A DNA stretch of 64,000 bases from Endomicrobiales bacterium (GTDB taxonomy: Bacteria > Elusimicrobiota > Endomicrobiia > Endomicrobiales > JAFGGC01). This document shows positions 904 to 53,737 of the stretch, piece after piece. Position 1 is the first letter of the stretch. Every line of letters starts with the position of its first letter. The stretch is taken from positions 1 through 64,000 of the forward strand of contig JAFGGC010000026.1 in NCBI GenBank assembly GCA_016930715.1. The letters run 5' to 3'. Both the position numbers and the translations under genes were made by a program. The notes under the pieces were generated by a model. The model was not told the origin of the DNA. It was given only the letters and a program-made list of their open reading frames with translations, and ran no database searches.

Positions 904-2228
904 AGCGCCTCAACAAGTTTGTCTATGTCTTTTTTGGTCTTTGTCTCCGTCACGCAGAAAAGCAGGCAGTCCTTCATTTCCGGATGGAAATCTCCCAGTT
1001 CGAACGGCCCTATTATGCCGTTTGAAGCAAGCTTCTTCCTTATCTCGGGGATCTTTTTTGTTGTCTTTATGGCGAACTCGTTAAAGAAAGGTTTATCCGG
1101 GAAGACGGGTGTAAACCCGTTGATTTTTGTTATGTTTTCGAACGCGTAACGGCTGTTCTGGATGTTTATTTCGGCGAGCCTTCTGAACCCTTCCGGCCCC
1201 CAGCCTGAAAGATAGACGCAGGCGAAGAGCGCGTTCAGCGCGGCGTTCGTGCATATGTTCGACGTGGCCTTTTCGCGCCGGATGTGTTGTTCTCGGGACT
1301 GGATGGTGAGAACGAAACCTCTCCTGCCTTTGGTGTCGGTGGTCTGGCCGGCTATTCTGCCCGGCATCTTCCAGAGGAACTCCTTTTTGCAGGCCATGAA
1401 CCCGAAAGAGAAACCGCCCAGCCCCTGCCGGTTGCCCAGCACCTGGCCTTCGCCGACCGCTATGTCGGCCCCGGCCTCGCCCGGGGATTTCAGCAGTCCC
1501 AGTGAAATGGGGTTGCAGACAACTATGAGAAGCGCGCCGGAGCTTTTTACGGCATCGGCAACGGCAGAAAGGTCTTCGATTATGCCAAAAAAGTTGGGCG
1601 ATTGTATTATGAAAGCGGCTGTATTTTCATTCAATTTTGCTTTCAGCGATGCCGGGTCAACGGAGCCGGCATTGAGCTCGAAATCTGATATTTCGGTTTC
1701 GGTGCCCTGCAGGTAGGTGGACAAAACCTGCGCGTATTCGGGATGGAGCCCTTTCGAAACGCATATGCGCGTTTTCCCGGTGGTCCTTATGGCCATCAGG
1801 GCGGCCTCGGCTGTAGCGGATGCGCCGTCATACAGGGAGGCGTTCGATACGTCAAGGCCTGTTAACCCGCAGATCATGCTCTGGTACTCGAATATGGTCT
1901 GCAGGGTGCCCTGGCTTGCTTCCGGCTGGTAGGGGGTATAGGCGGTGACGAACTCGGAGCGCCCCGCCAGCTGTGGGACGACAGCGGGGATGAAATGTTC
2001 GTATATTCCGGCTCCGAGGTATGATTTGTTTTGTCCAGTTGAGGTGTTCTTGGAGGCAAGCTGCTCGAATTCGGCGGCAAGCGCCTGCTCGGAAATGCCG
2101 TCAGGTATGTTGAGTTTTTTAATCCTTGATTTTTCAGGTATTTGAGAAAATAGCTCAAGTGATTCTTTAACTCCGATTTTCTTGAGCATTTCTTCTTTTG
2201 ACCGGTCGTTTGAGGGTAAAAAATCCAT
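891..2228 (-). CDS. gcvPA: Glycine dehydrogenase (decarboxylating) subunit 1
   Basis: N-terminal half of the split P-protein, acting as a heterotetramer with GcvPB. At 445 aa it has the family's normal length, and the start MDFLPSNDRSKEEMLKKIGV matches the conserved opening of GcvPA, which supports the ATG at 2228 although no good Shine-Dalgarno precedes it. Conserved blocks include GAGIYEHFIPAVV, TAYTPYQPEASQGTLQ and QSREQHIRREKATSNIC. It lies between gcvH and gcvPB. Its last codons and stop (LKSV-TAA) are read from a copy of the AAATCTGTGTAATC repeat word that recurs just downstream, so the C-terminus seems to be shaped by that repeat. Confidence 0.97.
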   Translation of the reverse strand: MDFLPSNDRSKEEMLKKIGVKESLELFSQIPEKSRIKKLNIPDGISEQALAAEFEQLASKNTSTGQNKSYLGAGIYEHFIPAVVPQLAGRSEFVTAYTPYQPEASQGTLQTIFEYQSMICGLTGLDVSNASLYDGASATAEAALMAIRTTGKTRICVSKGLHPEYAQVLSTYLQGTETEISDFELNAGSVDPASLKAKLNENTAAFIIQSPNFFGIIEDLSAVADAVKSSGALLIVVCNPISLGLLKSPGEAGADIAVGEGQVLGNRQGLGGFSFGFMACKKEFLWKMPGRIAGQTTDTKGRRGFVLTIQSREQHIRREKATSNICTNAALNALFACVYLSGWGPEGFRRLAEINIQNSRYAFENITKINGFTPVFPDKPFFNEFAIKTTKKIPEIRKKLASNGIIGPFELGDFHPEMKDCLLFCVTETKTKKDIDKLVEALKSV

Positions 2229-2274
2229 AGTATACTGACTTAAAGTTATGCTTTAACTTTGTCCTGGCTTATCA

Positions 2275-2310
2275 GGTCATCAGATCCCGGTAGCAACCTT
2301 CGGGATGACC
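2275..2310 (-). repeat. Hairpin between gcvH and gcvPA
   Basis: The minus-strand RNA has GGTCATCCCG near one end and CGGGATCTGATGACC at the other, pairing as GGTCAT/ATGACC and CCCG/CGGG around an 11-nt loop, with an unpaired CTGAT (or its complement) in one arm. It lies 14 nt after the gcvH stop and is not followed by a T-run, so it is not a standard terminator. A smaller dyad, AAAGTTA/TAACTTT, follows at about 2241-2260. It could be an mRNA-processing or stability element in the operon, or another short dispersed repeat. Confidence 0.6.
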
Positions 2311-2324
2311 CCGCCCCGGCGTGG

Positions 2325-2702
2325 TCACTTTAAAAGCTTGGAATACTCTTCCGCGGACAGCAGTTTTTCGTATTCTGAAGGGTTATTGGACTCTATAACG
2401 AAGAAATACCCTTCGTCATACGGCGACTTGTTGACGAGTTCGGGGCTGGACGAGAGCTTGTCGTTGACGTTCACGACCGTGCCGGACACAGGCGCGTATA
2501 TGTCGAAAGCCGATTTGACTGATTCCACGACAGCGCAGGGCTGGCCCTTTGTTACCTTCTTGCCGGAGGCGGGCAGCTCCACGTGGACGACATCCGTGAT
2601 TTCGTGCTGGGCGTGGTCGGTTATGCCGACTTTTATCTTCCAATTCTCGTTTTTGGCCCATTCGTGCGTTTTCGCGTAGCGAAGATCCTTTGGTACGTTC
2701 AT
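2325..2702 (-). CDS. gcvH: Glycine cleavage system H protein
   Basis: Lipoyl carrier that shuttles the aminomethyl intermediate between the P, T and L proteins. The 125-residue protein begins MNVPKDLRYAKTHEWAK and carries the lipoylation motif ESVKSAFDIYAP, with the modified lysine near residue 65; length and fold pattern are those of bacterial GcvH. The ATG at 2702-2700 is preferred over an in-frame start 24 nt upstream because a perfect AGGAGG (2708-2713) sits 5 nt in front of it. It is flanked by two different repeat structures: GGTCAAG words on the gcvT side and a hairpin at 2275-2310 on the gcvPA side. Confidence 0.97.
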   Translation of the reverse strand: MNVPKDLRYAKTHEWAKNENWKIKVGITDHAQHEITDVVHVELPASGKKVTKGQPCAVVESVKSAFDIYAPVSGTVVNVNDKLSSSPELVNKSPYDEGYFFVIESNNPSEYEKLLSAEEYSKLLK

Positions 2703-2707
2703 TGAAA

Positions 2708-2713
2708 CCTCCT
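2708..2713 (-). promoter_or_regulatory. Shine-Dalgarno site of gcvH
   Basis: A perfect AGGAGG on the minus strand, 5 nt before the ATG at 2702. It decides the start against the in-frame upstream codon at 2726, which has no such site and would place the initiation region inside the adjacent GGTCAAG repeat. Confidence 0.85.
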
Positions 2714-2719
2714 GAAAAA

Positions 2720-2793
2720 GGGTCAAGTAGCCAAGGTCAAGGGGCCAGGTATGTCAAAGTCTTCCTTGCTACTTGGTGCTTGACCCTTGACCC
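2720..2793 (-). repeat. Inverted GGTCAAG word repeat between gcvT and gcvH
   Basis: Arm 2720-2747 reads GGGTCAAGTAGCCAAGG and continues GTCAAGGGG on the plus strand. Arm 2767-2793 contains the complementary words (TGCTACTTGG, CTTGACC, CTTGACCC). The two arms are inverted, each made of reiterated 7-8 nt words, with about 20 nt between them. The element fills the gcvT-gcvH gap and enters gcvT: its second arm encodes the last residues QGQGSSTK and the stop codon. It matches no known RNA or protein-binding site that I recognise. Confidence 0.8.
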
Positions 2794-3869
2794 TGTCTTT
2801 TATTGCGTTTATAAAACGGCCTGTCCGTCACGGTGGCCGTTTTGACCTGGCCGTGTATCTCTATGCCGAGCGAGTCGCCCGGCTTGTACTGCGAGCCGGT
2901 GTAGGCGAGCGCGATCCCCTTTTTAAGCGTCGGCGAATAAGTTCCGCTCGTCACTTTTCCCGCCTCTTTGTTGCCGCAAAAGACCCTGCACCCCGTCCTC
3001 GGTATGCCGGAATCCATTATCAAGGCCGTCAGAAAAGTCTTCGGCTTGGCTTGTTTTATCTTTAAAAGCTCGGTCTTGCCTATGAAATCCTTGTCCCAGT
3101 GTATTACCCCCCCGAGCCCGGCCTCTATGGGAGATATCGAGTCGCTTATCTCGTGGCCGTGGAGAGGCATGCAGGCCTCAAGCCGCAGGGTGTCGCGCGC
3201 CCCGAGCCCGCAGGGGCGCACTTTGGCGGCGGCCAGAAGGTCCCAGATTCTTTTGGCCTCATCAACCGACATTATCATCTCGAAACCGTCTTCGCCGGTG
3301 TAGCCGGTCCGCGCGAGCATCGAGAATTTAGGCTTGAAGTACTTGTACTCCGGTTTAATGAATCGGAAGTATCCGACGCTTTTGAGGTCATCCTCGACGA
3401 AGGTTTGCAGGATAAGCTGGGCTTCCGGCCCCTGCAGGGCTATCATGCATACCCCGGGGCTTATGTAGTCTATGGCGAGGTTTTTTGTCTTGTGTTTTTT
3501 CATCCAGGCGAGGTCTTTGGGGGTGTTGCCGGCGTTTATCACTAGGACGAAATCCCTTTCCCTGCGGTATATTATGAGGTCGTCTATGACGCCGCCCTTT
3601 TCATTTAAAAACATCGAGTATTTGGCCTGTCCGGGGATGATGAGCGGTATGTCGGCGAGGGTAAGGCGGTTCAGGAAGTTTTCGGCGTCGGCGCCCGCGA
3701 TAACGACCACGCCCATGTGCGAGGTGTCGAACATCCCGGCGCGCTGGCGCACGGCGTTATGCTCTTCGACGATGGAAGTGTACTGTATCGGCATTTCCCA
3801 CCCGCCGAATTCAACGAAACGGGCTTTCAGCTGCTGGTGTTCGACGTAAAGTGGCGTTCGGTTGGGCAT
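2769..3869 (-). CDS. gcvT: Aminomethyltransferase (glycine cleavage T protein)
   Basis: Transfers the methylene group from the GcvH aminomethyl-lipoyl arm to tetrahydrofolate and releases ammonia. 366 aa, typical length. It opens MPNRTPLYVEHQQLKARF and has the conserved GGWEMPIQY, MFDTSHMG, ALQGPEAQ, TGYTGEDGFE and RDTLRLEACMPLHGHE blocks. The ATG at 3869 is chosen over an overlapping upstream TTG because AGAAGG is suitably spaced before it. It lies downstream of lpdA after a 418-nt gap that holds a promoter, a terminator and two repeat elements. The eight C-terminal residues QGQGSSTK come from a GGTCAAG repeat arm and are unlikely to be functionally conserved. Confidence 0.97.
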   Translation of the reverse strand: MPNRTPLYVEHQQLKARFVEFGGWEMPIQYTSIVEEHNAVRQRAGMFDTSHMGVVVIAGADAENFLNRLTLADIPLIIPGQAKYSMFLNEKGGVIDDLIIYRRERDFVLVINAGNTPKDLAWMKKHKTKNLAIDYISPGVCMIALQGPEAQLILQTFVEDDLKSVGYFRFIKPEYKYFKPKFSMLARTGYTGEDGFEMIMSVDEAKRIWDLLAAAKVRPCGLGARDTLRLEACMPLHGHEISDSISPIEAGLGGVIHWDKDFIGKTELLKIKQAKPKTFLTALIMDSGIPRTGCRVFCGNKEAGKVTSGTYSPTLKKGIALAYTGSQYKPGDSLGIEIHGQVKTATVTDRPFYKRNKRQGQGSSTK

Positions 3870-3880
3870 CAAAACCTTCT

Positions 3881-3971
3881 TGATTACACGGATTCTAAAC
3901 TTTGATTACACAGATTAGGTCTCTTTGTCTTTGTCGTATCCGTGTAATCCTCTATAATCTCTGTGTAATCG
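3881..3971 (-). repeat. Inverted GATTACACGGATT word repeat upstream of gcvT
   Basis: Arm 3881-3917 contains GATTACACGGATT and GATTACACAGATTA in direct order. Arm 3938-3971 contains the reverse complements (ATCCGTGTAATCC and CTGTGTAATC). The arms are separated by about 20 nt. The element ends immediately upstream of the gcvT Shine-Dalgarno and shares its word with the gcvPA/gcvPB junction repeat. Confidence 0.85.
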
Positions 3972-4019
3972 TCGTTATGGGGCATCACGGGTCACGCCAG
4001 GGCGGAACGGCATCTAATG

Positions 4020-4184
4020 AATACCCGCCTTCGCTAAACGCGGTCTTCAATTACCGCGGCTATTCGCCGCTTTGAAACCGCAGCTGCGGCGGGTTATCCG
4101 CAGTTTCCCTTTGTTGGCGACATTCGCCGAAGCGTCTTACGCATTCATCTGCGGGTAAAACCGTGGTATTCTGCGCAGGCGGAT
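4020..4184. repeat. AATCCGCC/GGCGGATT-type palindromic element, copy 1
   Basis: On the plus strand it starts AATACCCGCCTTCGC and ends CTGCGCAGGCGGATA, so the ends are approximate inverted repeats. Inside are several hairpins: GCGGC-TATTC-GCCGC at 4056-4070, CTGCGG/CCGCAG and GGCGA/TCGCC. The CGGCTATTCGCCG core and the GCGCAGGCGG end recur in the pstS-pstC gap, and the end also recurs upstream of the gene at 7860. No coding potential. It is interpreted as a small dispersed, MITE- or REP-like element. Confidence 0.55.
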
Positions 4185-52159: not shown

Positions 52160-53692
52160 CTATTTGACCTCTATTGAAAAGGGCCCGAATATATCGAGAT
52201 AGAATATGAAATAGTCGTGTTTTTCGTCGTACTCGTCCATCTTCTTGTGTTTAATTTCGTTGCCTTCAAAAGTTTTAACGGAAAACTCTCCCAGGTCTTT
52301 CGGAATCCTGACCTTCACCGCGCATTTCATAAGAGGATACGGAAAGCTCGTCCTTATCACGATGTTCCTGTAGACCTTCCCTTGGCCGGTCTGTTCGCCT
52401 ATCTCGAAAACCTGGTCCGACGGATTCGCCCTGACGCTCCCCTGCAGGTAAGCGACGGTGCTTTCGGAAGATTTTCCGGCTACGGAATAAAGGGAACGCG
52501 TGGCGGAGGCCTGCCTTCTGGTGACGGAGGTCTTGAGCGAATAGAACGTGAAATCTTCGGGAGCGGGCGGAAGCGCCTTTTTCTCCGGCTCGGCAGGAAG
52601 CGCCGGCGGCGCGGGTATTGCCGTTGTCTCGGGTTCCGGAAGTTTTTCGTCTGCTTTTTCAGGAAGCCTGGCAGATACCTTCTTTTTATCGGAAAAGAGT
52701 ATCGAAAGTGACATCCTATGCGAATCGCCGAGCACGCTGTAGGGTACGAATGCGTAATCCAGCCTGACGTTGGTTTCGCCGGCCTTGAAGTTGAAGCCGA
52801 GGCCTGCCGAAAGGCCGTGCAGGTCGCCGAGTTCAAGCCCGTTCAGGCGGTACCTGTATCCGGCCCTTATTGAAAGAAGCTCGACCGGGAAGTATTCCCA
52901 CCCGGATGAAATGAAAAGGTAATTGTCTACCGGCTGGTTGAGGTCGAACGTGGTGGTTAGCCTGTCCGTGATCCTGTAGGCAGCCGCGAGTTTCACGTTC
53001 ATCGGCAAGGGGTAGCCCTTTTCCCTGAATTTTATTTCGGTTCCCACGTGCTGGAACGCCAGGCCCAACGAAAGCGGGCTCGTATCGAAGCTATACAGCG
53101 CGCCGGCATCTACCGCAACCCCGGAGGCGCTTTCGGTATCGATCGTCTGCTGTATGTATTTTAAACTGCCGCCGAGAGACAGGTTTTTGTTGATGAAACG
53201 CGCGTACGACAGGTGCGCCGCAGTGTCGTAGGCCTTGAAATATCCTTCTATGGAAGTAAGGGGTTCGTAGGGGTCGGCCTCGTTCAGGCCCGAGCGCCTT
53301 TCAATGTCCTCCGGCGTGTAGAGGCCGTAGGCCGCTATCGCGGCGTATCCCTTGAATACGGGGAAGGCATAGCCGGCGAAGTCGTGCTTGATGTTCTCGA
53401 AAGACTCGTTATGCGTGACGCTGAGCTCTTTTTGTTCGAGCCGGGCCAGGCCCGCGGGGTTCCAGTACAGGGCGGACGCGTCGTCGGCAAGCGCTCCGAA
53501 AGCCGAACCCATAGCCACGGCCCTCGAGCCTATCCCGTATTTTAAAAACGTCGCGGAGGTCGTGCCGGCCTTGGGATGGATCTGGACCTCGCCGAAAAGG
53601 CAGTAAACAGTGAACAGTGAATAGTAAATAGTAAAAACAAAAGTAATTACTATACGGAAGGTCGAAGATGAGTATAAAGGTACTGTTCGCAT
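52160..53692 (-). CDS. PorV/PorQ-like outer-membrane protein with C-terminal extension
   Basis: 510 aa. The signal peptide (h-region about 13-34) is followed by a PorV-type barrel: GTTSATFLKYGIGSRAVAMG, ADDASALYWNPAGLARL and further strand pairs up to about residue 330. A proline/alanine/glutamate-rich linker (about 340-385) leads to a C-terminal beta domain ending GPFSIEVK. PorV is the type IX secretion shuttle barrel in Bacteroidetes; many related barrels occur in other diderm phyla without T9SS, so function is open. Residues 19-32 of the signal peptide are encoded by a repeat arm (see the repeat at 53599-53737). Confidence 0.8.
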   Translation of the reverse strand: MRTVPLYSSSTFRIVITFVFTIYYSLFTVYCLFGEVQIHPKAGTTSATFLKYGIGSRAVAMGSAFGALADDASALYWNPAGLARLEQKELSVTHNESFENIKHDFAGYAFPVFKGYAAIAAYGLYTPEDIERRSGLNEADPYEPLTSIEGYFKAYDTAAHLSYARFINKNLSLGGSLKYIQQTIDTESASGVAVDAGALYSFDTSPLSLGLAFQHVGTEIKFREKGYPLPMNVKLAAAYRITDRLTTTFDLNQPVDNYLFISSGWEYFPVELLSIRAGYRYRLNGLELGDLHGLSAGLGFNFKAGETNVRLDYAFVPYSVLGDSHRMSLSILFSDKKKVSARLPEKADEKLPEPETTAIPAPPALPAEPEKKALPPAPEDFTFYSLKTSVTRRQASATRSLYSVAGKSSESTVAYLQGSVRANPSDQVFEIGEQTGQGKVYRNIVIRTSFPYPLMKCAVKVRIPKDLGEFSVKTFEGNEIKHKKMDEYDEKHDYFIFYLDIFGPFSIEVK

Positions 53693-53737
53693 GGTAATCC
53701 GCCTTTTTTTACTACTGACTCATTACTGTCTACTGCC
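53599..53737 (-). repeat. Inverted CAGTGAACAGTGAATAG word repeat spanning the PorV start
   Basis: Arm 53599-53638 has words GGCAGTAAACAGTG, AACAGTGAATAG, TAAATAGTAAAAAC; arm 53706-53737 has the inverted words (TTTTTACTACTGAC, TTACTGTCTACTGCC). About 67 nt lie between, including the PorV start codon. The right arm starts right after the stop codon of the PQQ-propeller gene (53738-53740), and the left arm is inside the PorV signal peptide. The loop also contains AATCCGCC (53696-53703), the border of the other element family. Confidence 0.8.

Follow-up and report, generated by a model that had tools for sequence, protein, structure and literature searches.

Tandem heptamers are known from cyanobacteria as the STRR heptanucleotides. 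The repeats GGGAATC and GGGGA(C/T)T of Xanthomonas and Nostoc consist of heterogeneous dispersed 7-nt units with fixed and variable positions; the GGGAATC repeats often form two convergent, i.e. inverted, arrays (70 cases in Xcc and 75 in Xac) and are situated nearer to the upstream gene (mean 28 nt) than to the next one (160 nt), as described in the corresponding study (PMC4692102). The study also reports that heptamers exceed expectation among long bacterial simple repeats, for which there is no agreed explanation, that simple repeats are suppressed in the middle of genes and enriched near gene termini, and that bacterial heptamer slippage has been suggested to be related to the polymerase footprint (PMC4692102). 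A second type with the word TAACTGA occurs in Beggiatoaceae, Cyanobacteria and Bacteroidetes. These heptamers overlap ORF ends and stop codons, arrays are found at protein peripheries, 7-nt indels occur between two close Cyanothece strains and several heptamers are mixed in Microcystis; TAACTGA itself is one word, mostly in direct repeats just upstream of start codons, and the main genome contains only one indirect repeat (PMC4679880). Finally, the Rickettsia palindromic elements represent families of about 150 bp with a conserved peptide, small repeats that sit in frame inside unrelated genes (PMC10969869).

The element at the gcvT-gcvH junction described here is real and belongs to the known heptameric-repeat kind (Xanthomonas/Nostoc, TAACTGA, STRR), but its setting is unusual. 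Like the Xanthomonas/Nostoc repeats, the repeats of this genome are heterogeneous heptamers in inverted pairs near upstream gene ends. However, the former use one G-rich vocabulary and are 89-93% intergenic in xanthomonads (PMC4692102), whereas several vocabularies are found in one genome here and all nine loci of the vocabulary under study, gcvT-gcvH included, touch coding sequence. G-quadruplex-capable units are the Xanthomonas/Nostoc case; here only some words carry GGG. The overlap of ORF ends and stops is shared with TAACTGA, which differs by its single word and mostly direct repeats, and tandem heptamers are shared with STRR, though the cyanobacterial arrays in our named loci are longer and more regular. 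Since Microcystis mixes several heptamers, many vocabularies in one genome are not new. The in-frame occupation of genes by Rickettsia palindromic elements is matched here by arrays in ValRS, PurL and a radical-SAM protein, but those elements have a conserved peptide, whereas only period and words are shared here, with no fixed-length conserved sequence. Unusual are relatives of other families with period-7 arrays of different words at the ValRS, radical-SAM and gcvT-gcvH sites; our literature search, with most subscription journals outside its coverage, found neither a report of heptamer arrays from Elusimicrobiota nor one of such a same-site, different-word pattern.

In the window, i.e. the whole stretch of 64,000 nt that was analysed, gcvT encoding the glycine cleavage T protein (2769-3869, minus strand) is followed downstream by gcvH (2325-2702, minus strand), and most of the 66-bp gap between them is filled by the heptamer element. 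Read directly from the sequence, it comprises two inverted arms of degenerate 7-nt words (AGGGTCA, AGTAGCA, AGGGGCA) at 2719-2794. The left arm (2719-2749, plus strand) carries the four degenerate heptamers AGGGTCA (2719-2725), AGTAGCC (2726-2732), AAGGTCA (2733-2739) and AGGGGCC (2740-2746). A centre at 2750-2759, which reads TATGTCAAAG on the plus strand and AAAGTCTT with the following bases, separates it from the right arm (2760-2794, minus strand, read from 2794 to 2760), in which the five heptamers AGGGTCA, AGGGTCA, AGCACCA, AGTAGCA and AGGAAGA are arranged as AGGGTCAAGGGTCAAGCACCA at 2774-2794, AGTAGCA at 2767-2773 and AGGAAGA at 2760-2766. The GcvT tail codons RQGQGSSTK plus the TAG stop occupy 2769-2798 on the minus strand; every tail codon except the first two lies wholly within the array, where the word AGTAGCA provides the TAG that ends the gene. 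On the other side, the element ends 5 nt away from the gcvH ribosome-binding site (2708-2713, minus strand, complement of AGGAGG). The initial annotation, in which the word length of 7 was absent, had described reiterated GGTCAAG-type words in opposite orientation, a second arm giving the GcvT tail and stop, and a repeat-filled gap halting before the gcvH ribosome-binding site; the repeat-built gcvT end and gap are confirmed in all these points.

The arms are inverted in vocabulary, and their exact word order is not mirrored. Over 25 nt their complementarity is 72%, the two arms being 21 nt apart, and they include perfect blocks of 9 and 8 nt. Among 200 random window flank pairs, none matched the right arm in inverted orientation as well as its real flank does. 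The word GGTCAAG occurs 15 times in the 64 kb (6.3 expected), four of these within the element. A loose heptamer pattern permitting 2 mismatches gave 7 matches in the whole window against 4.0 expected, which is not significant, as 11 of 100 shuffles reach 7. In Rfam 15, no match at the gathering score was obtained for the window.

It had also been proposed that the element replaced the original GcvT terminus and that this required precise tolerance at the junction. Neither idea holds. Replacement is rejected on the complete C-terminal barrel domain (the match covers Pfam profile positions 4-80 of 80 and reaches residue 354 of the 366), on the conserved ..PFYKR, which is present, and on the variable tail lengths of other GcvT proteins. 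The alignment with relatives that had been suggested indeed shows variation behind PFY, namely 2-12 residues in 29 relatives (28 with 2-8 and one with 12) and 3-13 residues in the 46 named genomes that were parsed among the best 80 GcvT matches, 34 of these 80 loci being unparsed; the GcvT studied here has 13. Because the domain is complete and the tail length variable, the array lengthens a variable tail and the terminus was not replaced, and because the tail varies among relatives, precise tolerance at the junction is unnecessary. GcvT matches were found in 45 of 59 genomes, own included; the nearest named genomes among the best 80 matches are Endomicrobium and Endomicrobia with 49-50% GcvT identity, and neither the 59 relatives nor 340 genomes of the phylum included another genome of the same family. 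The repeat-made tail is an ordinary consequence that recurs at two other genes. For annotation, this means that the final residues of GcvT, ribosomal protein L15 and an AcpS-like protein in this genome are repeat and no protein signal.

Heptads at the gcvT stop were registered in 2 of 77 parsed loci, own included, a count that does not register the Nitrospira MAG locus L141, which shows heptads at its gcvT end. In this MAG of an unrelated phylum the heptamers begin right behind the conserved GcvT end (about 4083-4117). A different palindromic stretch, CCCCGTTAGAGAG..CTCTAACGGGG, forms an in-frame insert of roughly 40 amino acids in the GcvT of G001 (L267, about 1580-1710).

Period 7 is specific. 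With a scan window of 28 nt and at least 70% self-match, 400 kb of the genome gave 7 matches at period 7, representing several vocabularies, and one Markov-2 shuffle gave 0; of the remaining periods between 4 and 22, multiples of 3 gave 1-6 and all others 0-1 each. Two period-7 matches fall into the 64-kb window, and further arrays of the genome use CGCTATA, ATTGCGG, GGTAAA and CACTATT. Around GcvT of 77 named loci (500 kb, with L074-L076 outside the named group), period 7 yielded 11 arrays, nine of them in cyanobacteria, compared to 12, 5, 9, 11 and 11 for periods 6, 9, 14 (twice 7), 15 and 21 and 1-4 for the rest. Furthermore, 23 arrays were sampled from the studied genome (9, window included), G002 (5), G004 (3) and G014 (6), with none in the stretches of G003, G006 and G012; the stretches were not picked for arrays, except for the window and the gcvT stretches of relatives, which start from this locus. 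An inverted partner was detected for 10 of the 23 at p<=0.02, a direct partner for none. Twelve have a gene 3' end no more than 25 nt away (5.7% of random positions do so), two near a 5' end, one inside a gene (60% of random positions) and eight elsewhere; this count leaves aside G006 and G012 and rests on genes called by ORF and codon usage, which misses ORFs that extend beyond a stretch, as in the case of L160:4520.

Dispersed heptamer copies, heterogeneous 7-nt units with fixed positions, are present across the genome. The initial annotation had recommended a genome-wide search for the arm and regarded the lack of any other copy as refutation. No second exact copy was found by the DNA search, so that the objection is valid for exact copies only; degenerate copies do exist. 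Three-unit arrays of AGNNNCA with at most 1 mismatch gave 24 matches compared to 19 in a backward-read control, and the pattern without mismatch gave 9 in both. The nine exact control matches lie at five places, at least four of which are heptamer arrays of other words (ACTCCGA, ACATTGA); since the control matches are thus largely heptamer arrays themselves, the backward control is not neutral, and the pattern count alone proves nothing. Accepted by their words, 19 of the 24 matches fall at nine loci of shared vocabulary, gcvT-gcvH included, on contigs C6 (two), C22, C23, C29, C30, C39 and C43 (two), and the five others (two on C2, C22:184072, one on C24 and C30:11235) were left out. A similarity search recovers those on C29, C23, C6 and C43. 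The pattern GGTCAAG-N0-12-GGTCAAG matched five times, at the gcvT-gcvH element and at three C24 places that were excluded by sequence.

The initial annotation had asked whether the arm ends other genes too, and arrays of these words are indeed found at the ends of further genes and inside some. The AcpS-like gene ends in an array (..AVAIISRGK, ACPS domain complete) and so does the gene for ribosomal protein L15 (..TERTGSSSK), in both cases with the TAG from an AGTAGC word, and the stop of L17 overlaps an array start. Arrays are internal to ValRS (two), PurL (one) and the radical-SAM protein (one), each with an open frame throughout. On C23 the array is located just before a BatD domain and, by our reading, probably within a signal peptide. 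PurL carries in addition a two-armed unit of other words (GATAGCG/CGCTATA), and the segment with this insert comprises 51 residues, compared to 15-20 in 14 relatives and 37 in G002. The radical-SAM segment has 29 residues against 29-33 in 14 relatives; without net insertion, this site looks rewritten rather than inserted. The solved ValRS 1gax lacks 9 and 11 residues at the two array sites. In PurL 3viu, most of the second PurL stretch is missing, and the first falls into an unaligned part.

The same places are occupied by other words in relatives. The gcvT-gcvH gap of G002 holds a two-armed unit of AGGTNTA words into which the GcvT tail runs, and in G006, of the same family as G002, a repeat of the word ATCTGCG was seen there by eye, which does not have period 7. 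ValRS site 2 reads AGGGGCAAGGGTCAGGGGTCAGG in the studied genome compared to AATCTCAAATCTCAGATTTCAAATCTC in G004, and the radical-SAM segment reads AGGGTCAAGGGGCAAGGGGCA in the studied genome compared to GTGCAAATTGCAAAATGCAAATTGC in G002. A stricter scan of 44 relative proteins (ValRS, PurL, radical-SAM; the partial L241 left out and the G012 ValRS unaligned) detected three period-7 arrays, two at the sites of the studied genome and one elsewhere in the PurL of G002, and no array in any relative at the three other internal sites; periods 5 and 13 gave 3 further matches, none at these sites. As the sites make up a few percent of the columns, by rough arithmetic a coincidence of two out of three would arise by chance about once in a hundred. 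The shared sites are variable segments, and tolerance alone could bring independent arrays together there. The words are common to G001 and G002 as well: among 340 genomes of the phylum, GGGKCAAGTAGCAAGG is present in three, one of which is the studied genome. In these two, several units of the own and related vocabulary (L250, L252-L255) lie, by our reading, between an upstream stop and a downstream start. It is conceivable, if rather doubtful, that array position and period are inherited while the words turn over, the current vocabulary of a lineage overwriting old arrays. If true, this would mean concerted evolution of short repeats inside essential genes and an active genome-wide copying of 7-nt words.

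Collectively, we favour the view that the element is a dispersed 7-nt simple-sequence repeat in hairpin form, which probably spreads and rewrites by 7-nt slippage and copying and survives where it is tolerated. Arrays would lengthen and shorten in 7-nt steps through polymerase slippage, copying between arms and between arrays, by template switching or conversion in the hairpin, might spread the current words of a lineage, and selection would purge all arrays other than those near stop codons or within variable segments. At gcvT, an array may have run into the variable tail, and its own AGTAGCA word would have given the stop, a situation also encountered in the AcpS-like gene and in that for L15. 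A dedicated function at the gcvT-gcvH locus is unnecessary for this explanation, although the mRNA hairpin might influence gcvH expression. Against the explanation counts that word order differs from copy to copy, which copying alone would not yield, that the radical-SAM site has no net insertion and that the heptamer pattern does not clearly outnumber its backward control. With several vocabularies that often form inverted pairs and are located at gene ends as well as within the reading frames of ValRS and PurL, such a genome is a natural system in which insertion, slippage and rewriting in place could be told apart. It also shows how protein tails and variable segments can acquire residues.

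A mobile miniature element of the Rickettsia-palindromic-element type, i.e. whole units of about 80-100 nt inserted, also in frame, by unknown machinery, would account for the in-frame two-armed PurL insert, for the longer segment at ValRS site 2 and for the two-armed units between an upstream stop codon and a downstream start in G001 and G002. Such units should look alike over their length, but no full-length conserved sequence was found, word order and number vary among the 16 collected units, and the 13 of 23 arrays without inverted partner at p<=0.02 argue in the same direction. A common centre could be seen in AAGTC/GACTT, which is central in 7 of the 16 two-armed elements; however, 22 of 300 shuffles also contain a 5-mer with a count of 7, so that over all 5-mers this centre is not clearly above chance, only suggestive and not established as a defining motif. 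We regard insertion of this kind as a possibility of clearly lower rank than slippage and copying.

Selection of a functional RNA hairpin between gcvT and gcvH, acting as processing site, stabiliser or attenuator and kept in place while its sequence drifts, appears improbable. The same junction in G002 has a two-armed heptamer hairpin of other words and that in G006 another word repeat, several units fold into long stems, and five T follow the stem at gcvT-gcvH. But the folding of the element (-32.5 kcal/mol, z -2.0) is only moderately better than that of shuffles, 8 of 200 being as good, L250, L253 and L254 have no T run after the unit, identical words occur inside enzyme reading frames, and just the 2 of 77 loci mentioned above have heptads at the gcvT stop. 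No terminator-like site was detected on the minus strand of 2200-4100 by a scan of loops of 3-8 nt. An intrinsic terminator was rejected on the missing minus-strand match at the site and on a T run not common to L250, L253 and L254. In the units at G002 gcvT and G002 gcvH, in L030 and in the PurL unit, the stem consists of short paired blocks with an interruption about every 7 nt. Other units have longer stems without such breaks, and for the second window array a poor fold was obtained within the boundaries chosen. Arms of one vocabulary would show compensatory changes whether or not the hairpin is selected.

Mobilisation of a REP/REPIN-like element by a RAYT (Y1) transposase is very improbable. 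Y1_Tnp matches do occur in seven of 20 genomes, namely the studied one (4 matches), G001, G002, G004, G006, G007 and G016, but heptads accompany only 2 of the 20 Y1 loci examined (of 49 matches), where about 1.5 are predicted from background density, and none of the 4 in the own genome, and G014 has 6 arrays in 80 kb yet no Y1_Tnp match. This mobilisation was rejected because the Y1 flanks are without heptads beyond background. Within the Y1_Tnp loci L273, L274, L281 and L282, palindromes of the form ATGGTTGGG(8 or 6 nt)CCCAACCAT were observed. Chance similarity of low-complexity sequence, suggested by the short words and by a loose pattern that is not significant in the window and equals the backward control in the genome, has next to no likelihood and is rejected by the period scan against the shuffle and the inverted-partner test, with the specific words recurring at nine loci and the control matches being largely heptamer arrays.

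Other repeats were encountered in the same material. The window contains a second heptamer element of ACAGTGA/ATAGTAA words at 53594-53646, with an inverted partner at 53710-53737 (TACTACTGACTC..CTACTGCC) about 65 nt on. Repeats of the word GATTACACRGATT, spaced by 21-22 nt, occur upstream of gcvT as two direct pairs that face one another (3880-3973) and near the glycine dehydrogenase genes as one direct pair (857-900). In G014, long near-perfect AGGAGCA arrays adjoin CCCTCACCCTACCCTCTCCC / GGGGCGAGGG palindromes, giving composite repeats at three places (L256, L257, L258). Heptamer arrays of the AAGTTRTAAGTT type were seen in G004 (L185, L186, L187); in L186 and L187 a CATACCAGCGGAAGCTGGTAT palindrome closely follows the array, and in L185 a related stretch precedes it.
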